From assembly GCF_900104355.1 (NCBI RefSeq), contig NZ_FNIY01000009.1:1-64000 (forward strand): a stretch of DNA of 64,000 bases, read 5' to 3'. Each line of letters begins with the position of its first letter. Position 1 is the first letter of the stretch. Shown here one piece after another: positions 7,217-63,538 of the stretch. The position numbers and the translations under genes are program-made. The notes under the pieces are model-generated. The model worked only from the letters and a program-made list of their open reading frames with translations. It was not told the DNA's origin and did no database searches. The DNA comes from Phyllobacterium sp. OV277 (GTDB lineage: Bacteria > Pseudomonadota > Alphaproteobacteria > Rhizobiales > Rhizobiaceae).

Positions 7217-7410
7217 ACCCCCCTCTGCCCTGTCGGGCATCTCCCCCACAAGGGGGGAGATCAGCCTTCAATACCATCTTGCACAATCTGAAACTGTTCC
7301 GGTTGTGCAAAGGCGTTCATGCCAAGGTGATCTCCCCCCTTGTGGGGGGGCCGAAGGACGGGCGAGACCCGTTGCTCGCCCCGGTAGTCCGACAGGACAG
7401 AGGGGGTGAT
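7217..7410. repeat. Type B palindromic repeat, copy 1
   Basis: Second repeat family. The arms carry TCTGCCCTGTCGGGCATCTC and CCCCCACAAGGGGGGAGATC, mirrored at the right end around 7329-7410. The interior contains TTGCACAA and TTGTGCAAAGGCGTTCATGCC. The other copy is at 47431-47594. In this copy the right arm holds an extra segment at about 7350-7390 (GGACGGGCGAGACCCG region). It sits 26 bases after type A copy 1 and downstream of eipB. Confidence 0.85.
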
Positions 7411-40156: not shown

Positions 40157-41404
40157 CTAAGCCCGTGCGATTTCATCGAGGTACCACTGGATGTACCGCA
40201 ATTCGTTCTGCTCCATCGGCGCGATGGGTCCCGGCACGAAGTAGTGCGAGCGCACACCGCGCGCCGTGTGTTCAATGATTGTCTTGTCCTCGGCGGTGGT
40301 CACTTTCCAAAGCCATGTCAGCTTTTCAAGATCGTAATCCCTGCCCTCTTCCGCATCGCCGCGCACCAGCCAGATCAGTTCCATCTCGCAGGTTTCTGCG
40401 GTCTTCGGGATAAAGCGATAGATCATGCCATGATCAGGGTAGCAGACAAGAAAACTCGTGCCGCCAAGGTGAATGGACGTCACGCCGCCATCAAATTCGG
40501 TGAAACGGCCCATCAGTGGTCCCACGGGCGAACCGTCCTCGCTGCCGCTCGATACGCCATCATAGAGCGCATAGCGGAACGTATCGATGGTTTCCTGCCC
40601 CTGCGCCGAATTCTGCCAGTGATCGCCGGTGGCGATGTCAATGCCAAGCGCGCAGGTGCGCTGCTCCATGCGGGCATTCAGTTCGGTGATTTTCTCCAGC
40701 GGCTGCTCCAGCGCATGGGTCTGTGAATATTCAGGATGCGCCGGACCGCAGTGGTAGCACTCCACATAGTTCTCAACTGCCAGTTTCCAGTTGGCATCAA
40801 CCGGATAGGTCTCGCGGTGCGCCACCTTGGCATCGGCCCAGCCATATTGGCCGCAGGTGGTGCGCAGTGACTGTTCGATGATGGAGAAATCCAATGGTTC
40901 GTCAGCGAAGCAGATGAAAATCAGCCCTTCGGCCACGCGCACATGTAGTTTTTTCAGACCATGAGCGCTGCGATCAAAATCCCGCGGCATCAACCGGGCT
41001 GCCCGCAGGCTGCCGTCGTTCATGTAGGTCCATGCATGGTAGGGGCAGACGAAGAAGCGCGCATTGCCCTTTTGCTGGGTGCAGACCTCGGCGCCGCGAT
41101 GGCGGCAGACATTGAGGAAGGCATGGATCGACCCATCTTCGGTGCGCGAAACAATCACCGCTTCCGTATCGATCTTGAACAGCTCGAAATCGCCGGTATT
41201 GGGAATGATGCTGGCGTGACCGATGCAATGCCAGTGGCGACGGAACACGCGCTCCATATCTCTGGCATAGACATCCGGGTCCATATAGAAGGCGCGCACC
41301 AGACCGTGACCCGGCCGGTGTTCCGCAATCATGCGATCGATCTTGTCGCCTGCCGGTGCAATCCCGGCCACTGCCTGTTCTGCGCCCATCTTTGCCTCGC
41401 TCAA
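40157..41404 (-). CDS. Rieske oxygenase, quaternary-ammonium type (glycine betaine demethylase GbcA-like)
   Basis: The alpha subunit of a Rieske non-heme iron oxygenase, 415 aa. The 2Fe-2S site is Cys100-x-His102 and Cys120-x2-His123. The mononuclear iron motif is ENYVECYHCGPAH, ligands His218 and His223. Glu215 stands where most Rieske oxygenases have the bridging Asp; this Glu is a feature of the group acting on quaternary amines (carnitine, betaine, stachydrine). With the two demethylases downstream, glycine betaine is the likeliest substrate. No reductase partner (GbcB) is in the window. Confidence 0.85.
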   Translation of the reverse strand: MSEAKMGAEQAVAGIAPAGDKIDRMIAEHRPGHGLVRAFYMDPDVYARDMERVFRRHWHCIGHASIIPNTGDFELFKIDTEAVIVSRTEDGSIHAFLNVCRHRGAEVCTQQKGNARFFVCPYHAWTYMNDGSLRAARLMPRDFDRSAHGLKKLHVRVAEGLIFICFADEPLDFSIIEQSLRTTCGQYGWADAKVAHRETYPVDANWKLAVENYVECYHCGPAHPEYSQTHALEQPLEKITELNARMEQRTCALGIDIATGDHWQNSAQGQETIDTFRYALYDGVSSGSEDGSPVGPLMGRFTEFDGGVTSIHLGGTSFLVCYPDHGMIYRFIPKTAETCEMELIWLVRGDAEEGRDYDLEKLTWLWKVTTAEDKTIIEHTARGVRSHYFVPGPIAPMEQNELRYIQWYLDEIARA

Positions 41405-42622: not shown

Positions 42623-43102
42623 CTATTTCCGCTTAATCCCAATCGCTCTCCCCACGCGTGCAGGTAGCTCCAGCTTTGAATGGGCCTGCTTGTAAAACTC
42701 AAGCTTGGGCAATACATCTTCCGGAAACGGCACAACTTTGGGCCCGTTCATATCCACATGCAGCGACAGAACTTCCGAGGTGGCGGCCACCCATCCATCC
42801 CGGTGGATGATCTCGTTATAGGTGTGCAGGCGCTTGCCATCAAAGTCGATCAGCTGGCTCGTCACAGTCACCACATGGTCCAGATGAATCTCCTGCACAT
42901 AGCAAATATGGACCTCGGCGGTGTAAATCGTCAGCTTCCGCTCCGCTGCATATTTGGGCCCGAAACCAAGCTCCGCAAGGAATTCATCACCACCACGGTC
43001 AAACACCACATTGTAATAGGCCATGTTCAGATGGCCGTTATAATCGATCCATTCCTTTTCCATGGAGATCGGCGCGGAGCGGTATAATTCACCTTCTGAC
43101 AT
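42623..43102 (-). CDS. cdhB: Hot-dog thioesterase, betainyl-CoA thioesterase type
   Basis: Single-domain hot-dog-fold acyl-CoA thioesterase of 159 aa (4HBT/DUF-type). The active site loop is WIDYNGHLNMAYYNVVFD, with Asp20, Asn22 and His24. In Pseudomonas aeruginosa a similar protein (CdhB) sits beside carnitine dehydrogenase and releases glycine betaine from betainyl-CoA. Here it is next to the CdhR-like regulator and the cdhC-cdhA genes, which supports the same role. AAGGGAA precedes the ATG. Alternatively it hydrolyses carnitinyl-CoA. Confidence 0.82.
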   Translation of the reverse strand: MSEGELYRSAPISMEKEWIDYNGHLNMAYYNVVFDRGGDEFLAELGFGPKYAAERKLTIYTAEVHICYVQEIHLDHVVTVTSQLIDFDGKRLHTYNEIIHRDGWVAATSEVLSLHVDMNGPKVVPFPEDVLPKLEFYKQAHSKLELPARVGRAIGIKRK

Positions 43103-43194: not shown

Positions 43195-44181
43195 CTAACG
43201 ATTGGCATTGGTGCGTAAACTGCTCGGCGTCTTGCCTTCGAAGATGCGAAATGTCCGGGCGAAGGCGGCGGCGGATGAAAACCCTGTGCGTGCAGCGATG
43301 TCCGCAAGCGGTGTTTTTGTGTCTGTGATCAGCCGCCGCGCGATCTTTAGGCGCAGGCGCAGATAGTAGCGGCCGGGACCTTCCCCGACGGCTTTTGCAA
43401 ATATCTTTTCAAGACTGCGGGCGCTGAGACCGCAACGTTTGGCAATGGCCCCGATGGTCAGCGGCGCATCGAGATGCCCCTCCATCAGCCGGATTGCGGT
43501 GGCGAGTTTCGGATGCACATCGTCAAGCCGCCCCAGCGAAACAAGTGGCTGGGCGTCATTGGAGGCATGGGCCTCGTCATAGATGAAGACGCTCGCCACA
43601 TCGAGCGCCACGGACATGCCGCAGCGCGAACGGATGAGATGCAGCATCAGATCAAAGGTTGGCGATGCGCCGCCGGTGGTGAAGACAGGACCATCAATGA
43701 CATAACGATCCGGTCGCACATCGGTTTCAGGAAATTCGGCGGTGAACTCCTCCATGTCTTCCCAGTGAGTTGTAGCCCGGCGTCCCCTGAGCAATCCTGC
43801 CCGGCCAAGTAGCCATGACCCCGCTTCGATGCCGCCGATCATCTGGTAGCAGTGCGTGGCGCGGCGCAGGCTGGCGGTAAAGGTCGTGCGCGAAATATCC
43901 GATGTGCCGAAGCCGCCGATCATCAGCAGCATGTCGGCTTTGTCACAAGGATCGAAGGCACCGGAGACCGCAATCGGCAGACCGCAGGTGGTGATAGCAG
44001 GGTTTCCATCCAGAGAAACGATCTGCCATTTGAACAGGTTGCTGCTCGAGACGCGATTGGCCGCACGCATGGGATCAATGGTGGATGCCACGCACATCAG
44101 TGATGCACCGCTGAAGACAAGAACCGTCACTTCGAGCGTTTGGGTGTTGGGCAAAAAGAGTGGCGACGATTCGCTATTCAT
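43195..44181 (-). CDS. cdhR: GlxA-type AraC regulator, CdhR-like
   Basis: Transcription factor with an N-terminal DJ-1/PfpI-like (class I amidotransferase-like) domain and a C-terminal AraC double helix-turn-helix (PLTIGAIAKRCGLSARSLEKIF and PLADIAARTGFSSAAAFARTF). From the ATG at 44181 it has 328 aa; the open frame runs on to 44379 through the start of the divergent gene and is rejected there. CdhR, the activator of carnitine catabolism in P. aeruginosa, has this architecture and stands beside cdhCAB. A palindromic site lies in the shared promoter. Confidence 0.87.
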   Translation of the reverse strand: MNSESSPLFLPNTQTLEVTVLVFSGASLMCVASTIDPMRAANRVSSSNLFKWQIVSLDGNPAITTCGLPIAVSGAFDPCDKADMLLMIGGFGTSDISRTTFTASLRRATHCYQMIGGIEAGSWLLGRAGLLRGRRATTHWEDMEEFTAEFPETDVRPDRYVIDGPVFTTGGASPTFDLMLHLIRSRCGMSVALDVASVFIYDEAHASNDAQPLVSLGRLDDVHPKLATAIRLMEGHLDAPLTIGAIAKRCGLSARSLEKIFAKAVGEGPGRYYLRLRLKIARRLITDTKTPLADIAARTGFSSAAAFARTFRIFEGKTPSSLRTNANR

Positions 44182-44198
44182 CAAATCAAATTCGTATA

Positions 44199-44219
44199 TT
44201 GCAAAGCATTGGTTTGCAA
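44199..44219. promoter_or_regulatory. Operator candidate for the CdhR-like regulator
   Basis: TTGCAAA at 44199-44205 and TTTGCAA at 44213-44219 form a perfect inverted repeat with a seven-base spacer. It lies in the 79-base region between cdhR (start 44181) and cdhC (start 44261), 42 bases upstream of cdhC. Location and symmetry suit a dimeric activator controlling both directions; binding is not shown. Confidence 0.55.
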
Positions 44220-44260
44220 CAGCTGCATGATTTGCCCAACGAAAAAATGGGAGCAAAGCA

Positions 44261-45166
44261 ATGGGACTCACCCCCAATCGCGACGTATTCATTACCTGTG
44301 CCGTAACCGGCTCCGGTGACACGACAGGCCGGTCCGACAAGGTTCCGGTCACCCCGCGCCAGATCGCCGATGAGTGCATTTCCGCCGCTAATGCGGGAGC
44401 GGCTATCGCTCACATCCATGTGCGTGATCCGAAAACGGGCAAAGGCTCACGCGACATTGCGCTGTATACGGAAGTGGTCGAGTTGATCAAAGCGTCTGGT
44501 GTCGACATGGTGCTGAACCTCACCGCCGGTATGGGCGGCGACCTGACGCTTGGCTCGACCGAACAGCCCATGCCGCCCTCGCCTGATGGTACGGATATGG
44601 TTGGAGCAACGGAGCGTCTCGTGCACGTGGCAAAGCTGCGTCCGGAAATTTGCACGCTCGATTGCGGCACGATGAATTTCGGCGAAGGCGATTACGTCAT
44701 GACCAATACGCCTGCCATGTTGAAAGACATGGCAGCGCAGATCAAGGCGCTCGGCGTGCGCCCGGAAGTTGAAATTTTCGACACCGGTCATTTGCTACTC
44801 GCCAAATGGCTCTATGACCAGAAATTGCTGGAAGATCCTGTGATGGTGCAGCTTTGCATGGGCATTCCATGGGGTGCACCTGACGATATCAACACGCTGT
44901 TGGCACTCACCAACAATTTGCCATCCAACTGGACATTTTCGGCCTTCTCCATTGGTCGCAACCAGATGCCCTATGCGGCCATGGCGATGCTGGCTGGCGG
45001 CAATATCCGCGTTGGCCTTGAAGACAATATCTGGCTCGACAAGGGCGTTCTTGCCACCAACGGCCAACTGGTCGAACGGGCGGTGAAGGTTGCCGAAAGC
45101 ATTGGCGCGAAAATCCTTGGACCTGACGAGGTTCGCGCCCGCATGAAACTGACAAAGGGCTGGTGA
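44261..45166 (+). CDS. cdhC: BKACE-family 3-dehydrocarnitine cleavage enzyme
   Basis: Beta-keto acid cleavage enzyme (BKACE, formerly DUF849), a zinc TIM-barrel enzyme of 301 aa. It condenses a beta-keto acid with acetyl-CoA to give acetoacetate and a new CoA ester. The zinc ligands are in IAHIHVRDP (His51, His53); other family parts are [19 protein letters not shown] and FDTGHLLLA. Next to carnitine dehydrogenase the substrate should be 3-dehydrocarnitine, giving betainyl-CoA and acetoacetate. GGGAGCAAAGCA precedes the ATG. It opens the plus-strand operon. Confidence 0.9.
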
Positions 45167-45170
45167 CATC

Positions 45171-46232
45171 ATGACGACAATTCGCAAAGCGGCAGCCGTC
45201 GGCGGCGGTGTTATCGGCGCGGGCTGGGTCGCCCGCCTCATTCTCAACGGCATCGATGTTTCGATCTTCGATCCTGACCCGGAAGCAGAACGCAAAGTCA
45301 GCGAGGTGATGAAAAACTCACGGCGCGCCTACAAGACCATGGTTCCTGATGGCCTGCCGAAAGAAGGCAAGCTGACTTTTGCCAAGACCATTGCCGAAGC
45401 TGTCGCCGGTGCCAATTTCATTCAGGAAAGCGTGCCGGAACGGCTTGATCTGAAACACAAGGTGCTGGCGGAAATCGACAAACATGCGGCTGTCGACGCG
45501 ATTATCGGTTCGTCCACATCAGGCATTTTGCCATCGGATATGCAGACATCGATGCAGCATCCGGAGCGTCTTGTCGTCGGCCATCCTTATAATCCGGTTT
45601 ATCTGCTTCCCCTCGTGGAAATCGTCGGCGGTAAGCTGACCTCCCCGGAAGCCATCGAAACGGCCCGCGAACTCTATGCCTCCATCGGCATGAAGCCGGT
45701 GGTCATCCGCAAGGAAATCGAAGCCTTTGTTGGCGACCGCCTGCTGGAGGCCGTCTGGCGCGAAGCGCTGTGGTTGATCAAGGATGATATTACCACCGTC
45801 GAGGAACTCGACGATATCATGCGTTATTCCTTTGGTATCCGCTGGGCGCAGATGGGTATGTTCCAGGTCTATCGTGTGGCGGGCGGCGAAGCGGGCATGC
45901 GCCACTTCATGGCCCAGTTTGGCCCCTGCCTCTCATGGCCGTGGACCAAGCTGATGGACGTGCCTGAGCTGACAGACGAGCTGGTCGACAAGATCGCCAC
46001 CCAGTCGGATGAACAGGCGCATGGTCTTTCGATCCGCGAACTCGAGCGCATCCGCGACGACAATCTGGTTGCCATCATGGATGCCCTCTCCCGCCAGAAC
46101 AAAGGCAAGGGCTGGGGCGCCGGGGCACTCTACAAGGATTACACAAAACAATTGTCCAAACTGGCAAAGAAGCCTGCCATTTCAAAAGCTGCCGAAAAAG
46201 CCAAATCCACCAAACCGAAGAAGAAGGTTTAG
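45171..46232 (+). CDS. cdhA: L-carnitine 3-dehydrogenase
   Basis: NAD-dependent enzyme of the 3-hydroxyacyl-CoA dehydrogenase family, oxidising L-carnitine to 3-dehydrocarnitine. The Rossmann motif GGGVIGAG is at residues 11-18; SSTSGILPSDMQ and the catalytic-region VVGHPYNPVYLLPLVEIV are typical of carnitine dehydrogenase. It has 353 aa including a Lys/Ala/Pro-rich tail (about the last 30 residues) that is not part of the fold. In several rhizobia a thioesterase is fused to this protein; here it is separate (cdhB). It begins four bases after cdhC. Confidence 0.9.
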   Translation: MTTIRKAAAVGGGVIGAGWVARLILNGIDVSIFDPDPEAERKVSEVMKNSRRAYKTMVPDGLPKEGKLTFAKTIAEAVAGANFIQESVPERLDLKHKVLAEIDKHAAVDAIIGSSTSGILPSDMQTSMQHPERLVVGHPYNPVYLLPLVEIVGGKLTSPEAIETARELYASIGMKPVVIRKEIEAFVGDRLLEAVWREALWLIKDDITTVEELDDIMRYSFGIRWAQMGMFQVYRVAGGEAGMRHFMAQFGPCLSWPWTKLMDVPELTDELVDKIATQSDEQAHGLSIRELERIRDDNLVAIMDALSRQNKGKGWGAGALYKDYTKQLSKLAKKPAISKAAEKAKSTKPKKKV

Positions 46233-46236
46233 AACC

Positions 46237-47400
46237 ATGGATTTCGGTCTTTCGGAGGAGCAAAGGCTGATTGTCGAGACAACCCGCGCCTTTGTCGAAA
46301 ACGAGCTTTATCCGCACGAAGCGGAAGTCGAGCGCACGGGTGTCCTGCGCAAGGAACTGGCTGATGAGCTGAAGCAAAAGGCGATTGCCGCGGGTCTTTA
46401 TGCGGCGAATATGCCTGAAAGCGTTGGCGGTGCCGGTCTCGATACGGTGACATGGCTGCTCTATGAAAAGGAGCTTGGCCGCGCCAATTATGCGTTGCAC
46501 TGGTCCTGTGTCGGACGCCCATCGAACATTCTGCTCGCTGGCACAGACGCCCAGAAGGAAAAATACCTTTATCCCTGCATTCGCGGCGAAAAGTCCGATT
46601 GTCTGGCCATGACCGAACCCGGTGCGGGTTCGGATTTGCGCGGCATGAAGGCAACAGCCGTGGAAAAAGGCGGAGACTGGATCGTCAACGGTACGAAACA
46701 TTTCATCAGCCATGCGCTGGAAGCGGATTTTGTCATCCTCTTCGTGGCTTCAGGTGAAGAAGACACGCCGCGCGGCAAGAAGAAAAAGATCACTGCCTTC
46801 TTCGTCGACAAGGATCATCCGGGGATGACCATCCGCGAGGGTTATCGCAACGTCTCGCACCGGGGCTATACCAATGCGATCATCGAGTTCGACGATTGCC
46901 GCCTGCCCGCCGATGCCATCCTTGGCGAAGTGCATAAAGGCTTTGACGTCGCCAATACATGGCTCGGTGCCACACGGCTGCAGGTTGCGGCCACTTGCCT
47001 TGGCCGGGCGGAACGCGCGCTTGGCCACGCCATCCAATATGCGGCGCAGCGGGTGCAGTTTGGCCAGCAGATCGGCAAATTCCAGGGCGTTTCGTTCAAG
47101 CTCGCCGATATGGCAACGGAACTGAAGGCTGCTGATCTGCTGACTTTCGAAGCCGGATGGAAATTCGATCAGGGCACTGTGACCGATCAGGACATGGCCA
47201 TGGCCAAGCTGAAAGCCACGGAGGTGCTTGCCTTCGTTGCCGATGAAGCCATCCAGATTCACGGCGGCATGGGACTGATGGACGACCTGCCACTTGAACG
47301 CATCTGGCGCGATGCCCGCGTGGAGCGGATTTGGGAAGGCACATCGGAAATCCAGCGCCACATCATTTCCCGCGCTTTGCTTCGTCCGCATGGAGCATGA
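46237..47400 (+). CDS. Acyl-CoA dehydrogenase, probable (gamma-)butyrobetainyl-CoA dehydrogenase
   Basis: FAD-dependent acyl-CoA dehydrogenase of 387 aa. Motifs: CLAMTEPGAGSDLRGMKATA, then RVQFGQQIGKFQGV, QIHGGMGLMDDLPLERIWRDAR, and the catalytic Glu near residue 367 in IWEGTSEI. The start ATG at 46237 lies four bases after the cdhA stop. Beside a CaiD-like hydratase and a CoA ligase, it could oxidise gamma-butyrobetainyl-CoA to crotonobetainyl-CoA, a step analogous to CaiA running in reverse; the exact substrate is inferred. Confidence 0.88.
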   Translation: MDFGLSEEQRLIVETTRAFVENELYPHEAEVERTGVLRKELADELKQKAIAAGLYAANMPESVGGAGLDTVTWLLYEKELGRANYALHWSCVGRPSNILLAGTDAQKEKYLYPCIRGEKSDCLAMTEPGAGSDLRGMKATAVEKGGDWIVNGTKHFISHALEADFVILFVASGEEDTPRGKKKKITAFFVDKDHPGMTIREGYRNVSHRGYTNAIIEFDDCRLPADAILGEVHKGFDVANTWLGATRLQVAATCLGRAERALGHAIQYAAQRVQFGQQIGKFQGVSFKLADMATELKAADLLTFEAGWKFDQGTVTDQDMAMAKLKATEVLAFVADEAIQIHGGMGLMDDLPLERIWRDARVERIWEGTSEIQRHIISRALLRPHGA

Positions 47401-47430: not shown

Positions 47431-47594
47431 CACCCCCCTCTGTCCTGTCGGACATCTCCCCCACAAGGGGGGAGATCACATTGGCATGAACGCCTTTGCA
47501 CAACCGGAAACGTTTCAAATTGTGCAAAGGCAGTATTGTAGGCTGATCTCCCCCCTTGTGGGGGAGATGCCTGACAAGGCAGAGGGGGGTGGTC
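47431..47594. repeat. Type B palindromic repeat, copy 2, inside the operon
   Basis: The arms are near perfect: CACCCCCCTCTGTCCTGTCG at the left end mirrors the right end around 47560-47594. The interior has ATGAACGCCTTTGCACAACC and TTGTGCAAAGGCAG, homologous to copy 1 at 7217-7410. It lies between the acyl-CoA dehydrogenase and CoA ligase genes on the same strand. Its right end supplies AGAGGGGGGTGG just ahead of the ligase start codon. Confidence 0.88.
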
Positions 47595-47598
47595 ACTA

Positions 47599-49671
47599 GT
47601 GCCAAAACTCGACCGTCTGCTTCGACCCAAAACCATTGCAGTCTTCGGCGGTCTTCAGGCGGCCGAAGTCATCAAGCAATCGCAGAAAATGGGATTCTCA
47701 GGCGAGATATGGCCTGTCCACCCCAAGCATGATGAAATACTCGGCCTCAAAGCCTATCGCTCCGTCGCCGACCTTCCCGGCAGCCCGGATGCGGCGTTTG
47801 TTGGCGTCAACCGGTTTCTTACCATCGATATTGTCAGGCAATTGCGTGAACGCGGTGCGGGTGTTGCCGTATGCTATGCCTCGGGTTTTCTGGAAGCTGG
47901 CGCCGATGATGCGGATGGTGCGCGGCTGCAGGATGAGCTGATTGAGGCAGCGGGCGATATGCCGATCATCGGGCCAAACTGTTATGGCCTGATCAATTAT
48001 TGCGATGGTGCCCTGCTCTGGCCCGACCAGCATGGCGGACGCAGACTTGCCGCTGATGAGCGCGGTGTTGCCATCATCACCCAGTCGTCCAATATCGCCA
48101 TCAACATGACCATGCAGACGCGCGGATTGCCAATTGCCCATGTGATGACGGCAGGCAATCAGGCGCAAACAGGCCTGCCCGATATGGCTATTGCCCTGCT
48201 TGAGGATGAGCGGGTCACAGCGCTCGGTCTCCACATCGAAGCGTTTCAATCAGCGGCAAAATTCGAGGCACTGGCAAAACGCGCGCGGGAACTAAACAAA
48301 CCCATCGTTGCCATGAAGGTTGGTCGCTCGGCGCAGGCCCGCGCGGCAACCGTTTCGCACACGGCCTCGCTGGCTGGATCGGATGCGGCGTCGGATGCAT
48401 TTTTGACGCGCCTCGGCATTGCCCGGGTCAATTCCATCGCCTCTTTCCTTGAAACGCTGAAGCTTCTGCATGTGCATAAACAGCTTGATGGCAATACGCT
48501 TTCGTCCATGAGTTGTTCCGGCGGCGAAGCCTCTGTCATGGCCGACAGTGCCGAAGGCCGCGCGGTTCACTTTCCAGTCCTCACACCCGAACACCGGGCC
48601 AAAGTAAAATCCACGTTGGGGCCGCTGGTCGCCGTGGCCAATCCGCTCGATTACCACACCTTTATCTGGAACAATGAACCGGCACTCACCGAGACCTTTA
48701 CAGCCATGGTATCAGGGGGCTTCGCGCTCAATTGCCTTGTGCTTGACTTTCCCCGCAAAGACCGCTGTTCCGATGTGGATTGGTGGGCAACCGTGCGGGG
48801 TTTTGAGGCTGCTCTTAAAACCAATAATGCCAAGGGCGCCATTGTCGCGTCCCTGCCGGAAAACATACCCGAGGAATATATTGCCGGGTTGATGGCGAGA
48901 GGTATTGCGCCACTCTGCGGGATCACCGAGGCGTTTGATGCTGCTGAGGCTGCCGCGTTTATTGGTCAGGCATGGAAAACACCATTGCCTCAGCCCGTTG
49001 TTTCTCCCGAAGAAATCCATGCGGAAAATCTGACGCCCGACGAAGCGGAAGCAAAAGCCCTCCTTAGAATGCGGGGGCTACCCGTGCCTTTGGGCCAACG
49101 TTGCCAAAGCGTCGAAGAAGCGGTTGCAGCGGCGGAAAGATTGACCTTTCCGGTCGCGCTCAAGGCACTTGGCGTTGCGCACAAATCCGAGCTTAATGCT
49201 GTCAGGCTCAATCTGCGGGATGAACAATCCGTGCGCGTTGCTGCCACTGACTTGATTGGCATTGGCAGTGGGCTTTATGTCGAACGCATGGTGACCGACG
49301 CCGTTGCCGAACTCATTGTCGGCATTGTTGATGATCTGCAATTCGGACCGCTGATGACGCTTGGTACCGGCGGTGTGCTGGTTGAACTTTTGAAAGACAG
49401 CGTGACATTGCTCCTGCCATCCAGCCGGGCGGAGACCGAAGCCGCCCTGCGCTCGCTGCGTATGTTTCCGCTGCTTGACGGCTATCGTGGCAAACCGAAA
49501 GCCGATCTTGATGCGGCTTTGGATGCCATTCTTGGCATTGCCGATTTTGCGGTGAAGAATGCCGGCAGGATCGTTGAACTCGATATCAATCCGCTGCTTG
49601 TCTGCCGCAGCGGTCAGGGCGCATGGATAGCCGATGCGCTGCTTGTAACCAGGGGAGAGTTGCATGAGTGA
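47599..49671 (+). CDS. NDP-forming acyl-CoA synthetase (acetate-CoA ligase family), probable betaine-CoA ligase
   Basis: One-chain acyl-CoA synthetase of 690 aa of the ADP-forming acetyl-CoA synthetase family. Order: CoA-binding domain (from RPKTIAVFG, residue 10), succinyl-CoA synthetase-like domain with the phospho-His candidate His254 in VSHTASLAGSD, and a C-terminal ATP-grasp domain (PVALKALGVAHKSELNAVRL onward, about residue 515-690). It activates a carboxylate with ATP and CoA. Its place between the dehydrogenase and caiD suggests gamma-butyrobetaine, crotonobetaine or carnitine. The start is a GTG at 47599; its ribosome binding site lies in the adjacent repeat. Confidence 0.88.
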   Translation: MPKLDRLLRPKTIAVFGGLQAAEVIKQSQKMGFSGEIWPVHPKHDEILGLKAYRSVADLPGSPDAAFVGVNRFLTIDIVRQLRERGAGVAVCYASGFLEAGADDADGARLQDELIEAAGDMPIIGPNCYGLINYCDGALLWPDQHGGRRLAADERGVAIITQSSNIAINMTMQTRGLPIAHVMTAGNQAQTGLPDMAIALLEDERVTALGLHIEAFQSAAKFEALAKRARELNKPIVAMKVGRSAQARAATVSHTASLAGSDAASDAFLTRLGIARVNSIASFLETLKLLHVHKQLDGNTLSSMSCSGGEASVMADSAEGRAVHFPVLTPEHRAKVKSTLGPLVAVANPLDYHTFIWNNEPALTETFTAMVSGGFALNCLVLDFPRKDRCSDVDWWATVRGFEAALKTNNAKGAIVASLPENIPEEYIAGLMARGIAPLCGITEAFDAAEAAAFIGQAWKTPLPQPVVSPEEIHAENLTPDEAEAKALLRMRGLPVPLGQRCQSVEEAVAAAERLTFPVALKALGVAHKSELNAVRLNLRDEQSVRVAATDLIGIGSGLYVERMVTDAVAELIVGIVDDLQFGPLMTLGTGGVLVELLKDSVTLLLPSSRAETEAALRSLRMFPLLDGYRGKPKADLDAALDAILGIADFAVKNAGRIVELDINPLLVCRSGQGAWIADALLVTRGELHE

Positions 49672-50446
49672 TGTGATCAGAACGCGCCGCGAAGGCGGTA
49701 TTCTCGAAGTCACGCTGGATCGTCCGAAGGCCAATGCCATCGATCTCAAGACCAGCCGCCTGCTAGGAGAAACGTTCCAGAATTTCCGCGACGATCCTGA
49801 ATTGCGCGTGGCGATTGTCCAGACCGAAGGCGACAAATTCTTCTCCGCTGGCTGGGATCTGAAGGCAGCCGCAAGCGGCGATGCCGTGGATGGTGATTAT
49901 GGGGTCGGTGGCTTTGGCGGATTGCAGGAGCTGCGCGACCTCAATAAGCCTGTCATCGCCGCCGTCAACGGCATGGCGGTGGGCGGCGGGTTTGAACTCG
50001 CCCTCTCCTGCGATCTTATCTTTGCCTCCGACCATTCCAGTTTTGCCCTGCCTGAGATTCGCGCAGGTACGCTTGCTGATGCCGCCACGGTAAAATTGCC
50101 CAAGCGCATTCCCTATCACGTCGCCATGGACCTGCTTTTCACCGGACGATGGATGGATGTTGCGGAGGCGCATCGCTGGGGTCTCGTCAACGAGGTTCTG
50201 CCAAAAGACAAGCTGATGGAGCGCGTCTGGGAGATCGCGCGTCTGCTCGAAAGCGGCCCGCCACTGGTGTTTGCCGCCATCAAGGAAGTGGCGCGTGAAG
50301 CGGAGGATATGAGTTTTCAGGACGCCATGAGCCGGATCACCAAGCGCAAATTCCGCACGGTCGATGTGCTTTATGCCTCGGAAGACGGTCAGGAAGGTTT
50401 TAAAGCCTTTGCCGAAAAACGCGATCCCGTATGGAAAGGCAAATGA
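49664..50446 (+). CDS. caiD: CaiD-like carnitinyl-CoA dehydratase (enoyl-CoA hydratase family)
   Basis: Crotonase-fold enzyme of 260 aa that interconverts crotonobetainyl-CoA and L-carnitinyl-CoA. The sequence closely follows E. coli CaiD as I know it: LDRPKANAID at residue 18, FFSAGWDLKAAA at 59, the oxyanion segment AAVNGMAVGGGFELAL, and the C-terminus FAEKRDPVWKGK. The catalytic residues Glu111 and Glu131 are conserved in position. It overlaps the ligase gene by eight bases and the next gene by four, so it is translationally coupled in the operon. Confidence 0.9.
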   Translation: MSDVIRTRREGGILEVTLDRPKANAIDLKTSRLLGETFQNFRDDPELRVAIVQTEGDKFFSAGWDLKAAASGDAVDGDYGVGGFGGLQELRDLNKPVIAAVNGMAVGGGFELALSCDLIFASDHSSFALPEIRAGTLADAATVKLPKRIPYHVAMDLLFTGRWMDVAEAHRWGLVNEVLPKDKLMERVWEIARLLESGPPLVFAAIKEVAREAEDMSFQDAMSRITKRKFRTVDVLYASEDGQEGFKAFAEKRDPVWKGK

Positions 50447-51393
50447 GCACGGATTATTCGGTTCTGATCGACGCGGAAACCTGGGCTTTCATCGAGCGGA
50501 CCAACAGCTTTTATCCGCCCGATGCGGTTGAATATACCGTCGCACAGCAACGCGAGGTTTATAACCGGATGTGCCGGGGGTTTTTCGTCGGCTATCCCCA
50601 GAGCGTTTCATCCGCTGATCGCTTCGTTGATGCTGATAGCAGGAAAATCCCTGTCCGTATCTATGACAAAGAGAACACCACACCCGAAGCCATCTGCCTG
50701 TATTTTCATGGCGGTGGCTTTGTCGTCGGTGGTCTCGACAGCCATGATGATGTCTGTGCCGAGATTTGTGACGCCGCCGGCTTTCGCGTTATCTCAGTCG
50801 ATTATCGCCTTGCGCCCGAGCACGTACATCCCGCATCGTTCGAGGATTGCCTTGCGGTATTCGAGCATGTGGCGGCAACGTCTGCTCTGCCCATCGTGCT
50901 GTGCGGCGACAGCGCTGGCGGCAATCTGGTTGCTGCGGTTTCGCATTATGTGCGCCACAGTGATCGCGCGCCAATTGGTCAGGTGATGATCTATCCCGGA
51001 TTGGGCGGTGCGCAGAACGAGGGTTCGTATGTCACCCATGCGGAAGCACCTATGCTGACCACACGCGATACGGTCTACTACGCCAAGGTCAGAAGCGGCG
51101 ATCACGACTGGTCAAAAGACCCGCGTTTTGCCCCGCTCGCTGACACCGACTTTTCCAACCTGCCCGATACGATTGTAATCTCTGCCGAGTGTGATCCGCT
51201 TTCGGATGATGGCAGGCACTATTGCGAGCGGATTTCAGCTGATGGCGGCAAGGCGATCTGGAACAATGAGCCCGGTCTGGTGCACGGCTATCTGCGTGCC
51301 CGCCACAGCGTCGAACGCGCCCGCTCCAGCTTCCGCCGGATATGCACTGCGGTGCATTTGCTGGGCCAAGGCCGCTGGCCGGGTCAGCTTTGA
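50443..51393 (+). CDS. HSL-family alpha/beta hydrolase, candidate acylcarnitine esterase
   Basis: Serine esterase of the hormone-sensitive lipase (GDSAGG) family, 316 aa. The oxyanion motif HGGGFVVGG begins at residue 89 and the nucleophile Ser157 lies in CGDSAGGNL. A catalytic Asp (SAECDPLSDDG) and His (GLVHGYLRARH) follow. There is no signal peptide. The ATG at 50443 overlaps the caiD stop as ATGA, an in-frame ATG lies four codons upstream. Coupled to caiD, it could release carnitine from short-chain acylcarnitines, like a known Pseudomonas enzyme; unproven. Confidence 0.87.
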   Translation: MSTDYSVLIDAETWAFIERTNSFYPPDAVEYTVAQQREVYNRMCRGFFVGYPQSVSSADRFVDADSRKIPVRIYDKENTTPEAICLYFHGGGFVVGGLDSHDDVCAEICDAAGFRVISVDYRLAPEHVHPASFEDCLAVFEHVAATSALPIVLCGDSAGGNLVAAVSHYVRHSDRAPIGQVMIYPGLGGAQNEGSYVTHAEAPMLTTRDTVYYAKVRSGDHDWSKDPRFAPLADTDFSNLPDTIVISAECDPLSDDGRHYCERISADGGKAIWNNEPGLVHGYLRARHSVERARSSFRRICTAVHLLGQGRWPGQL

Positions 51394-51703: not shown

Positions 51704-53365
51704 CTAATTCCCCGCACTCGCCATGCGACGGTTTTTCACCGCCCCTTCCAGCCAGCCCAGTTCCATCTCAGGAACCGATGACAGAAGCAGGTCCGTATAG
51801 GCATCGAACGGCGGCGTCAGTACCTGCGATTTTGGCCCATAGCGCACCACCTCGCCGCGATACATGACAGCAATGGCATCGGCGATGGATTTGACCGTGG
51901 CAAGATCGTGGGTGATGAAGAGATAGGCCACATGTTCATCCGCCTGCAGATCAAGCAGAAGTTTCAAAATGCCATCGGCCACGAGCGGATCGAGCGCACT
52001 TGTTACCTCGTCGCAGATGATCAGTTTCGGCTTGGCGGCCAGCGCGCGAGCAATACAGACGCGCTGTTTTTGCCCGCCTGAGAGTTCGGCGGGATAGCGG
52101 TCGACAAAGCCCTTGCCCATTTCGATCTTGTCGAGCAGTTCGGCAATGCGCTTGTCCCGTTCCTTGCCGCGCATGCCGAAATAGAATTCGAGCGGACGGC
52201 CGATAATGGTCCCTATGGTCTGGCGCGGGTTCATCGCCACATCCGCCATCTGGTAGATCATCTGCAATTCGCGCAGATCATTGCGGGTGCGATTGGCGAG
52301 ACGTGGTGAAAGCGTGCGCCCGTCAAAGGTGATCGTGCCTTCCATCGGCGGGAGAAGGCCGGTGATCGCGCGTGCGAGTGTCGATTTGCCTGAGCCGGAT
52401 TCGCCGACAACAGCGAGTGTCTGGCCGAGATGCAGATCCACCGAGACATTTTTCAGAACTTTGACTAGCCCGCCGCCATAGGCCGCCGTGACGTTCTTCA
52501 CCGACAGAATGGGCGTGCCATCGGTTGTCTTTTCCTGATGCGGGATGTGATGCACCGAAACCAGCTGGCGCGTATATTCCTGGTGCGGTTCCTTGATGAT
52601 CTGGCGCGTATCGCCATATTCCACCATCTTGCCGTGGCGCAGTACCATGATGTCATCGGCAACCTGTGCCACAACCGCAAGGTCGTGGGTGATATAAAGC
52701 GCGGCGACGTTCGTGTCGTGAATGGCATCCTTGATCGAAGCAAGCACATCAATCTGGGTGGTCACATCAAGCGCCGTCGTTGGCTCGTCAAAGACAATCA
52801 GATCCGGTTCGGAACACAGTGCCATGGCAGTCATCGCGCGTTGCAACTGCCCGCCTGATACCTGATGCGGAAAGCGCTGACCAAAAGTCTCAGGATTTGG
52901 CAGGCCCAGCTTTTTAAACAGGCCGATAGCGCGTTTTTCCGCTTCGGCGCGCGTGGTGATCCTGTGCTGAAGCGCCGCTTCAATCACCTGATCCATCAGT
53001 TTGCGTGCCGGATTGAAAGCCGCTGCTGCCGACTGCGCGACATAGCAGACTTCGCGGCCACGGATTTGCCGCAGCGTCTTTGCGCCACCTTTGAGGATAT
53101 CGCGGCCATTGAGCAGCACTTCGCCGCCAGTGATACGGACACCACCGCGGCCATAGCCCATGCCGGAAAGACCGATGGTGGACTTCCCTGCTCCAGATTC
53201 GCCGATCAAGCCCAGAACCTTGCCGCGCTCAACCTTCACCGAGATATCGTCGACAATCACAACATTGCATGGCGGTTCGCCGGGCGGATAACTGGTGGCT
53301 TCAATTCTCAGATTGCGGATATCGAGAAGAAGGCCAGATTTGTCCTTTGCAGGTGCTTTAGCCAT
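51704..53365 (-). CDS. Fused double ATP-binding protein of a peptide-type ABC transporter
   Basis: Two ABC ATPase domains in one chain of 553 aa, corresponding to DppD plus DppF. First half: Walker A GESGAGKST near residue 55, signature VSGGQLQR, Walker B IVFDEPTTALD. Second half: GESGSGKST near 316, LSGGQKQR and IICDEVTSALDP. It powers uptake through the two permeases encoded upstream and overlaps the second permease gene by eight bases. Family members carry peptides, glycosides or quaternary amines; the substrate is unknown here. Confidence 0.92.
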   Translation of the reverse strand: MAKAPAKDKSGLLLDIRNLRIEATSYPPGEPPCNVVIVDDISVKVERGKVLGLIGESGAGKSTIGLSGMGYGRGGVRITGGEVLLNGRDILKGGAKTLRQIRGREVCYVAQSAAAAFNPARKLMDQVIEAALQHRITTRAEAEKRAIGLFKKLGLPNPETFGQRFPHQVSGGQLQRAMTAMALCSEPDLIVFDEPTTALDVTTQIDVLASIKDAIHDTNVAALYITHDLAVVAQVADDIMVLRHGKMVEYGDTRQIIKEPHQEYTRQLVSVHHIPHQEKTTDGTPILSVKNVTAAYGGGLVKVLKNVSVDLHLGQTLAVVGESGSGKSTLARAITGLLPPMEGTITFDGRTLSPRLANRTRNDLRELQMIYQMADVAMNPRQTIGTIIGRPLEFYFGMRGKERDKRIAELLDKIEMGKGFVDRYPAELSGGQKQRVCIARALAAKPKLIICDEVTSALDPLVADGILKLLLDLQADEHVAYLFITHDLATVKSIADAIAVMYRGEVVRYGPKSQVLTPPFDAYTDLLLSSVPEMELGWLEGAVKNRRMASAGN

Positions 53366-54188
53366 TGCCGCGACCTCCCTTCAAGCTGGTGGTTCGGTTG
53401 AGTATCCAGTCCGCAACCAGATTGACGGAGATCGACAAGACAGCGATAGCGGCAGCCGGAATAAGCGCTGCGGGAATGCCGAAAACAATACCTTCCTTGT
53501 TTTCCTTGACCATACCGCCCCAATCCGCATCCGGCGGTTGAACACCAAGACCGAGGAACGACAGCGCTGATAGAAACAGCACAGCGAAGATGAAACGCAG
53601 GCCAAGTTCAGCAATCAGCGGCGTCAGCGCATTCGGCAGTATCTCGCGAAAAATGATCCAGATACGCCCCTCGCCGCGCAGCTTTGCCGCCTCGACGAAA
53701 TCCATGACGTTGATATCGACAGCCACCGCCCGCGCCAGCCGGTAAACACGGGTGGCATCAAGAAGCCCCATAACGAAGATCAGCGTTGTGATATTGGCGG
53801 GCAGAACCGAGAGCACGACAAGCGCAAAGATCAGGGTGGGGATCGCCATGATCAGATCGACAAAGCGCGACATGAGCTGATCGAACCAGCCTCCGATAAC
53901 CGCAGCAGCAAAGCCCAGCACCGATCCGAGAATGAACGACAGGGCCGTTGCCATGGCAGCAATGAAGATGGTGATACGCGCGCCGTAGATCATGCGCGAA
54001 AGCAGATCGCGGCCAAGATTATCCGTACCGAGCCAGTATTTGGCCGACATGGGTTCCCAGACGTCGCCGACGGTTTCGCCGACGGAATATGGAGCAACCC
54101 ATGGTGCGAAAATCGCCGCGAAGAGAAAGATGGCCGTGATGATCAGACCGATCCAGGCGCTGATGGGAATGTTTTTAACGTTCAACAT
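53358..54188 (-). CDS. ABC transporter permease (DppC type)
   Basis: Inner membrane permease of 276 aa with six hydrophobic segments. The binding-protein-dependent transport motif EAAKLRGEGRIWIIFREILPNALTPLI is near residue 175, and the N-terminal region LGTDNLGRDLLSRMIYGARI is typical of the DppC/OppC group. It is the second permease of a system with 54198-55157. Nine bases separate the two genes. Confidence 0.93.
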   Translation of the reverse strand: MLNVKNIPISAWIGLIITAIFLFAAIFAPWVAPYSVGETVGDVWEPMSAKYWLGTDNLGRDLLSRMIYGARITIFIAAMATALSFILGSVLGFAAAVIGGWFDQLMSRFVDLIMAIPTLIFALVVLSVLPANITTLIFVMGLLDATRVYRLARAVAVDINVMDFVEAAKLRGEGRIWIIFREILPNALTPLIAELGLRFIFAVLFLSALSFLGLGVQPPDADWGGMVKENKEGIVFGIPAALIPAAAIAVLSISVNLVADWILNRTTSLKGGRGNG

Positions 54189-54197
54189 GGCGCGGCC

Positions 54198-55157
54198 TCA
54201 CTTGGGGTGTCTGAGGCGGGGATTGGAAACAATCGCCACGATGTCAGCAATAATATTGAGGGTGATATAGACAGCCGCGAAAACCAGTCCGCACGCCTGA
54301 ACGACGGGAACATCGCGCTTGGCCACATGATCAACCAGATACTGCCCCATGCCGGGATAGACGAAGATAACTTCGACCACGACCACACCGACAACAAGGA
54401 ATGCCAGATTGAGCATCACCACATTGACGATTGGCGCAATGGCGTTGGGAAAGGCATGGCGGGTGATGATCTGAAGCGGCGTCAGCCCTTTCAGCTCCGC
54501 CGTCTCAATATAGGCTGATTGCATGACATTGAGGATGGCAGCTCTGGTCATGCGCATCATATGCGCCAGAACCACCAGTGTCAGAACCGTGACCGGCAGG
54601 GCAATGGCGCTCAGCCGTTCGCCGAGCGGCATGCCGTCATAGACGGTGGAAACGCTCGGGAACCATTGCAGACGCACGGCAACAAAATAGATCAGCAGAT
54701 AGCCGGTAAAAAATTCCGGCAGCGAGGTGGAGGCAAGGCCGAGGCCGGAAATGAGCTTGTCCACCCAGCCATTGCGATAGCGCACGGCCAGAAGGCCAAG
54801 CGCGATTGCCAAGGGGATCGAGACAACGGCCGCCCAGAAAGCGAGGAACAGCGTGTTCCATAACCGCCCTTTGAGCGACGTCGCAATGTCCTGTCCACTG
54901 GATAGCGCCGTACCGAGATCGCCGGTTAATATGCCGCCAAGCCAATGCAGGTAGCGGATATAGGCCGGATCATTCAGCCCCATGTCACGCCGCAGGTTTG
55001 CCAAAGCCTCCGGCGTGGCCGACTGGCCGAGAATGGATTGCGCCACATCTCCCGGCAGTATCTGGGTGCCTGCAAAAATCAGCACCGAGACTGCCAGAAG
55101 AAGAAGAAGGCCCATGACTATGCGTTGGGCCACCAGTTTGAGGACAGGACCACTCAT
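54198..55157 (-). CDS. ABC transporter permease (DppB type)
   Basis: Inner membrane permease of 319 aa with six hydrophobic segments. DppB/OppB features include QRIVMGLLLLLAVSVLIFAG at the N-terminus, LGLNDPAYIRYLHWL-like region, and ETAELKGLTPLQIITRHAFPNAI as the cytosolic coupling loop. It starts three bases after the substrate-binding protein gene, so the four transporter genes form one operon. Confidence 0.93.
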   Translation of the reverse strand: MSGPVLKLVAQRIVMGLLLLLAVSVLIFAGTQILPGDVAQSILGQSATPEALANLRRDMGLNDPAYIRYLHWLGGILTGDLGTALSSGQDIATSLKGRLWNTLFLAFWAAVVSIPLAIALGLLAVRYRNGWVDKLISGLGLASTSLPEFFTGYLLIYFVAVRLQWFPSVSTVYDGMPLGERLSAIALPVTVLTLVVLAHMMRMTRAAILNVMQSAYIETAELKGLTPLQIITRHAFPNAIAPIVNVVMLNLAFLVVGVVVVEVIFVYPGMGQYLVDHVAKRDVPVVQACGLVFAAVYITLNIIADIVAIVSNPRLRHPK

Positions 55158-55160
55158 CCG

Positions 55161-56750
55161 TTAGGCCATCAGCCAGCAGCGGGACAAGGCATAGCCACCG
55201 CTCATTTCCTGATTGCCATCTTTCACCCAGCCGCCAACCTTGGCACTGGTCGCATCGATGAAGTCGTTGAACATCGGCACGATAACACCGCCTTCATCGC
55301 GGACAGTCACCGACATGTCGCGATACATCTGCTTGCGCTTGGCGGGGTCCAACTCGCCGCGCGCTGCAATCAATGTCTTGTCGAATTTTTCATTGAAGAA
55401 GCGTGTGTCGTTCCAGTCTGCGGTGGAAAGATAGGCGGTTGAATACATCTGGTCCTGTGTCGGACGGCCACCCCAATAGGATTCCGAGAATGGCTGCTTG
55501 TTCCACACTTCGGACCAGTAGCCGTCGCCGGGTTCGCGCTTGACCTCGATCTTGATGCCAGCCTTTGCCGCGCTCTGCTGGAAAAGCTGTGCCGCATCGA
55601 TAGCGCCCGGAAAGGCCACATCGGATGTGCGCAGCAGTACCGAACCATCATGGCCAGACTTCTTGAAGTGGAAAGCCGCCTTGTCAGGATCGTAGGCACG
55701 CTGTTCGATATCATCCGAAAACAGCGGATAGGCCTTGTTGATCGGGAAATCATTGCCGATCGAACCATAGCCGCGCAGGATTTTCTGCACCATATCTTCG
55801 CGATTCATGGCGTATTTCAGCGCCAGACGCAGGTCGTTATTGTTGAACGGTGCCGTGTTGCAATGGGCGATGAACACATAATGTCCCTTGCCCGCCACGT
55901 TCTGGATGGTCACGCCGGGAACGCGCTTGACCAGATCAACGATCTTCGGCTCGACGCGGTTGATCATGTGAACCTGTCCGGACTGCAAAGCGGATGTGCG
56001 GGCCGTGGCATCGTTGATGACGATGATTTCAATCTGATCCGCGTGACCGCGCTTATCGCCGTCCCAATAGCTGGCGAACTTCTCGCCGATATGGCGCACG
56101 CCCGGTTCGTCCTTGACGACCTTATAAGGCCCGGTGCCGATACCGGCGGTCGGCTTGTCCTTGCCGCCATTGGGCTGAATCATCAGATGGTAATCATCCA
56201 TCAGGAACGGCAGGTCGGCATTCGGCTCTTTCAATGTGAAAACAACGGTATCGCCGTCTTTCTTCACATTGTCGATGCCCTTCATGACACCAAGCGCACC
56301 GGATTTTGAATTGGCGTCGGAATGGCGTTCCATCGTGGCTACGACGTCATCAGCGGTCATTTCCTTGCCATTGTGGAACTGTACGCCCTTGCGGATTTTG
56401 AAGGTCCAGACCTTGGCGTCGGGTGTCGAACCCCATTCCGTGGCAAGTTTCGGGTTTAACGTGCCATCGGCCTGAATTTCAACGAGCTGTTCGCCCCATT
56501 GGCGGCCAAATTTATAGGGAACCTGGCTCTGCCATGTTGCCGGGTCCATGCTGTCGGTCGAAGCGCCGCCCTGCATACCGGCTTTCAGCGTACCGCCCTT
56601 GACCGGACCTTCTGCCAAAGCCGCGCTGGAAAGCAATGAATTGGCTAAAACGGTGGTGACACCGAGAGCGGCAGCGCGGCCAAGAAAATCACGACGGGAC
56701 AAATGTCCGCGTGCGACCTTGCGGCTCAGATAATCGAGTTCTTTTGACAT
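55161..56750 (-). CDS. ABC transporter substrate-binding protein, family 5, Tat signal
   Basis: Periplasmic solute-binding protein of the DppA/OppA family, 529 aa from the ATG at 56750 (AGGGG seven bases upstream). The N-terminus has a twin-arginine export motif (SRRDFLGRAAALG) followed by a hydrophobic stretch ending at ALA. Family segments include WTFKIRKGVQFHNGKEMTADDVV and LRLALKYAMNREDMV. Tat export of such proteins is common in alphaproteobacteria. The ligand is unknown; a carnitine-like betaine or peptide is possible given the neighbourhood. Confidence 0.92.
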   Translation of the reverse strand: MSKELDYLSRKVARGHLSRRDFLGRAAALGVTTVLANSLLSSAALAEGPVKGGTLKAGMQGGASTDSMDPATWQSQVPYKFGRQWGEQLVEIQADGTLNPKLATEWGSTPDAKVWTFKIRKGVQFHNGKEMTADDVVATMERHSDANSKSGALGVMKGIDNVKKDGDTVVFTLKEPNADLPFLMDDYHLMIQPNGGKDKPTAGIGTGPYKVVKDEPGVRHIGEKFASYWDGDKRGHADQIEIIVINDATARTSALQSGQVHMINRVEPKIVDLVKRVPGVTIQNVAGKGHYVFIAHCNTAPFNNNDLRLALKYAMNREDMVQKILRGYGSIGNDFPINKAYPLFSDDIEQRAYDPDKAAFHFKKSGHDGSVLLRTSDVAFPGAIDAAQLFQQSAAKAGIKIEVKREPGDGYWSEVWNKQPFSESYWGGRPTQDQMYSTAYLSTADWNDTRFFNEKFDKTLIAARGELDPAKRKQMYRDMSVTVRDEGGVIVPMFNDFIDATSAKVGGWVKDGNQEMSGGYALSRCWLMA

Positions 56751-56870
56751 ACCCATTCCCCTTTTGTTGCTTGGAACGCATAGCGCCCAAATTCGGTTTT
56801 TGTGAATTATGCGACTTGATACCCGTGGATTTCAACCGTCAATGTGACGTTTGACTATAACCTCCAGCAA

Positions 56871-62665: not shown

Positions 62666-63538
62666 ATGAGCGCATTCGGTTCCCAGTCCATGGCCCTTCC
62701 CCTGAAACGCGTCATCATGCGCATGCCTGACCGCGTTATGGCTGGTGCCGAGCGTGACGTCTGGCATTATGGCCCGCAGTTCGATCCGCGCCGTGCATCC
62801 GAACAGCACCGCGTATTTGCTGACCTTGTGGCTCAGTCAGGTGCTGACATTACCTGGATCAGAGACGGCAATGATGGATTGTCGGATTCCATCTTCACGC
62901 ACGATCCCTCTCTCGTCACCGACAAGGGTGCAATCCTTCTGCGCATGGGCAAACCCCTGCGTCTGGATGAGACCGATCTTCATCACGAAACCTATAGCCA
63001 GATGGATGTGCCGGTTCTTGGCCGCATTGTCGCGCCGGGTACAGTTGAAGGCGGCGATTGCGTCTGGGTCGACAGCAAGACACTGGCCATTGGCCGCGGC
63101 GTGCGCACCAATCAATCCGGTATCGAGCAGATGGCCGCCATTCTTGAGCCACTTGGCGTGACTGTTCTCGGCTTTGACCTGCCGCTGTGGCAGGGCGAAG
63201 AGGCTTGCCTGCACCTGATGTCCATCATCTCGCCGCTGGCTGAAGACCTTGCTCTTGTCCATCTGCCCCTGCTGCCAGCCGCCTTCTATCAGTTGCTGAA
63301 AGAGCGCGGCATTCGCCTCATCGCAGCGCCGGAAGAAGAATTTGCCGCCAGCAATGGGCTCAACCTCAACGTGCTGCCAACCGCGCCCTATGAAGTCATC
63401 GCGGTGGCGGGCTTTGAGAAGACCAAGGCGGCTATGGAAGCTGCTGGCTGCACTGTCACAACCTTCGAAGCCGATGCATTGTGCATTGCCTGCGAAGGCG
63501 GTCCCACCTGCCTCACCCGTCCGGTCTTCCGGCAATGA
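62666..63538 (+). CDS. Dimethylarginine dimethylaminohydrolase-family protein
   Basis: Guanidino-modifying enzyme superfamily (amidinotransferase fold), 290 aa. Family features: SDSIFTHDPSLVTDKGAIL near residue 73, the acidic motif VEGGDCVWVD at 128, a catalytic His at about 183 (EEACLHLMSIISP), and the nucleophilic Cys282 in GGPTCLTRP near the C-terminus. DDAH converts N-methylated arginines to citrulline and methylamines. A related amidinohydrolase activity cannot be excluded. GAGAG precedes the ATG. It overlaps the following TetR-type gene by four bases. Confidence 0.85.
   Translation: MSAFGSQSMALPLKRVIMRMPDRVMAGAERDVWHYGPQFDPRRASEQHRVFADLVAQSGADITWIRDGNDGLSDSIFTHDPSLVTDKGAILLRMGKPLRLDETDLHHETYSQMDVPVLGRIVAPGTVEGGDCVWVDSKTLAIGRGVRTNQSGIEQMAAILEPLGVTVLGFDLPLWQGEEACLHLMSIISPLAEDLALVHLPLLPAAFYQLLKERGIRLIAAPEEEFAASNGLNLNVLPTAPYEVIAVAGFEKTKAAMEAAGCTVTTFEADALCIACEGGPTCLTRPVFRQ

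Follow-up and report, generated by a model that had tools for sequence, protein, structure and literature searches.

CaiC is a member of the AMP-binding enzyme family. The Escherichia coli enzyme is a ligase for L-carnitine, gamma-butyrobetaine and crotonobetaine; in the enterobacterial pathway CaiC acts as the ligase and CaiB cycles CoA between product and substrate (PMC2131755). The NDP-forming acyl-CoA synthetases provide a second point of reference, and some members of this superfamily work in reverse, making ATP (PMC6388921). DddX, an ATP-dependent dimethylsulfoniopropionate (DMSP) lyase, acts on this sulfonium acid via its CoA ester. Its authors concluded that His292 is phosphorylated, and their docking and mutants assign Trp391 a cation-pi contact with DMSP-CoA (PMC8163506). 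DddX is a precedent for the action of this superfamily on a methylated onium acid. In Sinorhizobium meliloti, a PNAS 2021 paper describes BcoAB as a gamma-butyrobetaine:CoA ligase, employed as a reagent to prepare gamma-butyrobetainyl-CoA with ATP, Mg and CoA (PMC8364193). In the literature found under bcoA/bcoB and SMc0163x/SMc0164x, the J Bacteriol 2019 primary paper aside, BcoAB is described as a reagent only. Industrial conversion of gamma-butyrobetaine to L-carnitine is long-standing in the Rhizobium-like strain HK4/HK1349 and follows a route resembling fatty-acid degradation (PMC2131755).

The window considered here is a stretch of 64,000 nucleotides from Phyllobacterium sp. OV277 (contig NZ_FNIY01000009.1, positions 1 to 64,000). 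Its gene at 47599-49671 (plus strand) is proposed to encode an ADP-forming gamma-butyrobetaine:CoA synthetase that probably accepts crotonobetaine and carnitine too; a probability of about 85 per cent is assigned to this reading. The domains, phospho-histidine, conserved gene module, clade and sequence motif are its basis, and from these the substrate, nucleotide product, direction and later steps are inferred.

The synthetase gene and its neighbours

The gene is an open reading frame with a GTG start, and its 690-amino acid product is identified by Pfam domains, alignment and tree as a fused alpha-beta NDP(ADP)-forming acyl-CoA synthetase. CoA_binding_2 covers residues 11-132 (E value 5e-14), Succ_CoA_lig 156-290 (7e-32) and ATP-grasp_5 479-681 (4e-46), all three exceeding the curated cut-offs. 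The AMP-binding domain that is the hallmark of CaiC (PF00501) has no Pfam match in the protein. The expected phospho-histidine, His254 (codon 48358-48360, plus strand), lies in the segment SHTASLAGSD and aligns with DddX His292; histidine occupies this column in all 88 aligned family members. The CoA-binding, ligase/flavodoxin-like and ATP-grasp domains, with the phospho-histidine on its swinging loop, place the protein in the NDP-forming (ACD) superfamily. The original prediction of a fused CoA-binding/ATP-grasp synthetase with a phospho-His254, not an AMP-binding enzyme, is confirmed by these domains and the alignment, as is its location between an acyl-CoA dehydrogenase gene and a caiD-type gene. 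Top NCBIfam matches are CoA ligases for acetate, 3-hydroxypropionate and 4-hydroxybutyrate, each falling well short of its equivalog cut-off (the 4-hydroxybutyrate and 3-hydroxypropionate models give 211 and 236 bits against a cut-off of 1300). The top PDB match is DddX (7cm9, 1e-64). An AlphaFold2 model made with 16 close orthologues has a mean pLDDT of 62.6, too poor for pocket analysis.

The plus-strand operon includes a BKACE gene (44261-45166; Pfam BKACE, 1e-95), proposed to encode a 3-dehydrocarnitine:acetyl-CoA cleavage enzyme, and a carnitine 3-dehydrogenase gene (45171-46232) matching NCBIfam PRK07531 at 605.6 bits, above the cut-off of 592. An acyl-CoA dehydrogenase gene follows (46237-47400; Pfam and NCBIfam), which adjoins the synthetase gene in nearly all loci and whose product is the proposed gamma-butyrobetainyl-CoA dehydrogenase. 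Downstream, the synthetase frame overlaps by 8 bases that of a CaiD-like enoyl-CoA hydratase (49664-50446, plus strand), the proposed crotonobetainyl-CoA hydratase. Its best NCBIfam model is crotonobetainyl-CoA hydratase (PRK03580; 320 bits, under the 500-bit equivalog cut-off), and its orthologue is annotated as carnitinyl-CoA dehydratase in R. etli, Sulfitobacter and Ruegeria. The next plus-strand gene (50431-51393) encodes, from profile matches, an alpha/beta hydrolase of the hormone-sensitive-lipase type, possibly an acylcarnitine esterase. CaiB-type CoA transferase genes are absent from the operon; the PF02515 (CoA_transf_3) matches of the genome sit on other contigs.

Minus-strand genes flank the operon on both sides. 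To the right lies an Opp/Dpp-type ABC importer (51704-56756), with a probable role in betaine uptake. It comprises a fused ATPase (51704-53365), two permeases (53358-54188 and 54198-55157) and a binding protein (55161-56756), and the binding protein and ATPase genes adjoin the operon in relatives too. To the left is the probable cluster regulator, a GlxA/GbdR-type AraC protein (43195-44379) identified by profile matches and kept beside the operon in relatives. The proposed betainyl-CoA thioesterase (42623-43102) matches PRK07531 at positions 352-495, where this model of a fused carnitine dehydrogenase has its C-terminal thioesterase portion. A LysR regulator gene separates it from the gene for a Rieske oxygenase (40157-41404) that is a relative of the glycine betaine monooxygenase GbcA (285 bits in NCBIfam, where the cut-off is 670). 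Two FAD oxidoreductase-GcvT fusions resembling dimethylglycine/sarcosine dehydrogenase occupy 35230-40118 (35230-37674 and 37671-40118). Near the right end of the window, a 290-residue frame (62666-63538) has a partial arginine deiminase match (Pfam ADI, 7e-17).

The acyl-CoA dehydrogenase is a constant partner of the synthetase, which makes gamma-butyrobetaine, a saturated acid, the likeliest compound to enter the pathway. Crotonobetaine or D-carnitine as the main substrate of CoA activation would agree with the range of acids described for E. coli CaiC (PMC2131755), but is an unlikely alternative, since the dehydrogenase is needed only with gamma-butyrobetaine entry.

A palindromic repeat element (47431-47591) lies in the 198-base gap between the dehydrogenase and synthetase genes. 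Its 48-nt arms are 92% complementary and a half copy is found at window positions 7236-7261; half-sites number 97 in the genome as a whole, whereas a reversed control gives 0. The element is present at this site in P. myrsinacearum (L006 and L010) and absent, with a gap of 8 bases, in P. calauticae (L007) and Phyllobacterium sp. 628 (L008), a distribution suggesting that it was probably inserted recently in the operon. The window synthetase gene starts with GTG, its counterparts in these relatives with ATG.

Distribution of the three-gene module

The closest synthetase orthologues, with the same neighbours, are 68-92% identical to the window protein (Phyllobacterium 79-92%, Mesorhizobium about 70-74%). 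The usual gene order in these relatives, found nearly always, is regulator, BKACE, carnitine dehydrogenase, acyl-CoA dehydrogenase, synthetase, hydratase and hydrolase. Wider searches recover the same core of five genes, its synthetases sharing as little as 43% identity, in many Rhizobiales, on the R. etli plasmid p42c and in members of the Rhodobacterales, Sulfitobacter among them. In Ruegeria the trio of dehydrogenase, synthetase and hydratase occurs alone, and in Sinorhizobium sp. M103 the carnitine dehydrogenase and synthetase genes stand approximately 3 kb apart. Of 349 genomes sampled across the phylum, 35 contain a strong synthetase match, nearly all in the class of the window genome. 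The gene arrangement is widespread in rhizobia.

The trio behaves as a unit. Among loci longer than 9 kb, 105 combine it with carnitine dehydrogenase, 17 carnitine dehydrogenase loci lack all three genes (e.g. Agrobacterium fabrum pAt and Paracoccus) and in 13 the trio occurs with no carnitine dehydrogenase of at least 50% identity; most were fetched with a synthetase or carnitine dehydrogenase query, so the figures show which genes occur together and should not be read as an unbiased census. Nine loci depart partly from the pattern, some of them at contig ends or with partners just under the identity thresholds. Some trios have a GlxA-type regulator of their own next to them and lack a nearby carnitine dehydrogenase (L186, L187 and L230, and also L241 and L245, which are additional to the loci counted above). 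Synthetase, dehydrogenase and hydratase are thus a near all-or-none module that generally accompanies carnitine dehydrogenase and BKACE.

Several loci vary in detail. In L205 (5081-7183; G406) and L206 (6478-8571; G426), two other genomes of the family, the operon slot holds a synthetase of only 31-33% identity with a different motif, NPLDLNIPFSASDG. A second family member seems to have taken over the slot, a hint that the position calls for an NDP-forming enzyme. In L189 (8173-9760) and L190 (4964-6551), from genomes G411 and G312, respectively, the synthetase is followed by tandem hydratases about 50% and 75% identical to that of the window. Split alpha and beta subunits were sought in the carnitine operons: in the inspected loci, what looked like splits proved to be a single open frame whose linker is divergent. 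The exception is L146 (3640-6077; G397), in which two overlapping frames carry the alpha and beta parts through either a natural split or a frameshift.

Phylogenetic position and the NPLDYHTxxW motif

An 88-sequence tree puts the window protein within a 61-row clade of module synthetases (SH-aLRT 97). This clade stands apart from DddX, the 4-hydroxybutyrate- and 3-hydroxypropionate-CoA synthetases, a paralogue from the same genome (L209) and a Sphingobium gene labelled 'pauA'. A careful 56-row tree keeps the clade, with support of 98/91 without the long row L218 and 89/70 with it, and sets off a wider 45-row group from the remainder at 100/100. DddX is separate from the clade in the trees, though on a very long branch. 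The Sphingobium 'pauA' gene adjoins crotonase and aldehyde dehydrogenase genes and so looks like a ferulate-type synthetase. The comparison with other NDP-forming synthetases proposed at the outset gave a clade distinct from the other families sampled in both the 88- and 56-row trees, and no clustering with aromatic or short-chain types.

The clade has a diagnostic motif, which in the window protein reads NPLDYHTFIW (residues 348-357; 48640-48669, plus strand). Its general form, NPLDYHTxxW, consists of NPLD, Tyr352, His353, Thr354, two variable positions and Trp357. In the 88-row alignment, Tyr352 is found in 60 of 61 clade members against 4 of 27 other sequences, and His353 in 53 of 61 against none of 27. 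Trp357 is common to the clade and some sister clades, and the Sphingobium sequences are without the YHTxxW motif.

An NDP-forming synthetase for another short, branched, hydroxy or aromatic acid, placed in the carnitine cluster by chance, would suit the breadth of the family, the nearest NCBIfam models and the public annotation, 'acetate--CoA ligase family protein'. This reading is quite improbable in view of the tight association with carnitine genes in numerous families as well as in Rhodobacterales, the joint absence of dehydrogenase and hydratase where the synthetase is missing, and the separate clade. An aromatic-acid synthetase was rejected on the tree and a chance neighbour on the module counts.

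Sister groups carry related motifs: NPLDYTTPIW (L197-L200), NPLDFTAGxW (L191, L195 and L196) and NPLDFTTAIW (L238 and L239). They mostly adjoin related acyl-CoA dehydrogenases and hydratases, and L197-L200 also have a 38% identical carnitine-dehydrogenase homologue and a 54% identical BKACE. These groups may represent parallel pathways for other betaine-like acids.

At the columns of DddX Trp391, Phe435 and Glu432 the window protein has His353, a gap and Asp392, the alignment near 432-435 being uncertain; the cation-pi pair Trp391/Phe435 and general base Glu432 of DddX are thus not found in the window protein. Aromatic residues at the position where DddX holds the sulfonium group would fit a trimethylammonium substrate. 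A DddX-like lyase, activating a betaine or sulfonium acid and then eliminating an amine or sulfide as trimethylamine or DMS, recalls the best solved-structure match and its use of a CoA ester (PMC8163506), but is very improbable given that dehydrogenase and hydratase, users of the intact CoA ester, nearly always adjoin the synthetase, that Trp391 and Glu432 are replaced by His353 and Asp392, and that DddX occupies a long separate branch. A DMSP lyase was rejected on these gene partners and residues.

Proposed pathway and comparison with known systems

The proposed gamma-butyrobetaine:CoA synthetase would open a beta-oxidation-like route from gamma-butyrobetaine through carnitine to glycine betaine, the order of reactions being suggested by family functions. 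(i) ATP would phosphorylate His254; ADP rather than GDP is assigned as the nucleotide from family chemistry. (ii) The phosphorylated histidine is expected to swing between the ATP-grasp and CoA-binding halves. (iii) The phosphoryl group would pass to the carboxylate and be displaced by CoA, yielding the CoA ester, ADP and phosphate. (iv) The neighbouring acyl-CoA dehydrogenase would convert gamma-butyrobetainyl-CoA to crotonobetainyl-CoA, which the CaiD-like hydratase would turn into carnityl-CoA. (v) Carnitine may be freed by hydrolysis of carnityl-CoA or by the synthetase in reverse; the ATP-making members of the superfamily (PMC6388921) indicate that the same enzyme could release carnitine from carnityl-CoA while recovering ATP. 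(vi) Carnitine dehydrogenase, BKACE and thioesterase would then convert carnitine via 3-dehydrocarnitine and betainyl-CoA to glycine betaine. (vii) Finally, the products of the Rieske and dimethylglycine-dehydrogenase-like genes are predicted to demethylate glycine betaine. Given the ADP-forming chemistry of the family, each activation would spend one high-energy bond; the earlier statement of a cost of one bond instead of the two of an AMP-forming enzyme follows from that chemistry. The scheme offers a way in which these aerobes could arrive at carnitine from an operon that contains no gene for CaiC or CaiB. Should the synthetase be reversible, the conversion would be ATP-neutral, a point relevant to industrial L-carnitine production with rhizobium-like strains. 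Patents on strain HK4/HK1349 are said to list a gamma-butyrobetainyl-CoA synthetase gene.

BcoAB is described as catalysing the same reaction as that proposed for the window synthetase. Its name hints at a pair of subunits or of fused parts, whereas the window protein is a single fused chain, a point that counts against equating the two outright. Exactly one fused synthetase orthologue, of 56-58% identity, is present in each of 16 genomes (16/16) of the S. meliloti genus, recognised by DNA similar to S. meliloti pSymB. In the one genus member inspected (L152), it lies beside an acyl-CoA dehydrogenase and a carnitine dehydrogenase-thioesterase fusion. The context expected of a BcoAB-type ligase is also found more generally, with acyl-CoA dehydrogenase and crotonobetainyl-CoA hydratase adjoining, usually within a carnitine operon. 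The S. meliloti carnitine dehydrogenase is SM2011_c01638, which reportedly acts on betainyl-CoA as well (PMC12482172), and SMc01639 carries the annotation acyl-CoA dehydrogenase (PMC12542648); both are consistent with the same gene order in S. meliloti. In view of the 16 genomes and the carnitine operon of L152, BcoAB is probably the orthologue of the window synthetase.

DddX belongs to the same superfamily, is colinear with the window synthetase over residues 10-672 and shares its phospho-histidine. However, DddX goes on to eliminate DMS, and its aligned pocket residues differ. The ADP-forming 4-hydroxybutyrate- and 3-hydroxypropionate-CoA synthetases and the Sphingobium pauA/feruloyl-type enzymes share domains and family chemistry with the window enzyme, but lie in other clades. 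The original prediction had placed an NDP-forming enzyme in the position of CaiC as a new kind of activating enzyme for trimethylammonium acids. The placement draws indirect support from the module and the separate clade, whereas the claim to a new kind is weakened by S. meliloti BcoAB and the DddX precedent. What the locus adds is a corrected name for a widespread rhizobial and roseobacterial gene, whose public label is misleading, and, in NPLDYHTxxW, a sequence marker of the gamma-butyrobetaine module.

CaiC and CaiB of E. coli and Proteus, like the window synthetase as proposed, supply CoA esters to CaiA- and CaiD-type enzymes (PMC2131755). The difference lies in the AMP-binding family of CaiC, the window synthetase being without that domain and its operon without a CaiB-type gene. 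A bolder extension, tentative and on balance doubtful, is that a single ADP-forming enzyme replaces both CaiC and CaiB, charging gamma-butyrobetaine and remaking ATP in reverse on carnityl-CoA at no net ATP cost, and that the NPLDYHTxxW clade is an undescribed NDP-forming group specific for quaternary-ammonium acids. Gamma-butyrobetaine:CoA ligation by BcoAB, industrial conversion by a rhizobium-like strain and action of the superfamily on an onium acid (DddX) are already known. For gamma-butyrobetaine, the soil- and plant-associated Phyllobacterium appears, from its genes, to use an ADP-forming enzyme, in contrast to the AMP-forming type of gut bacteria.
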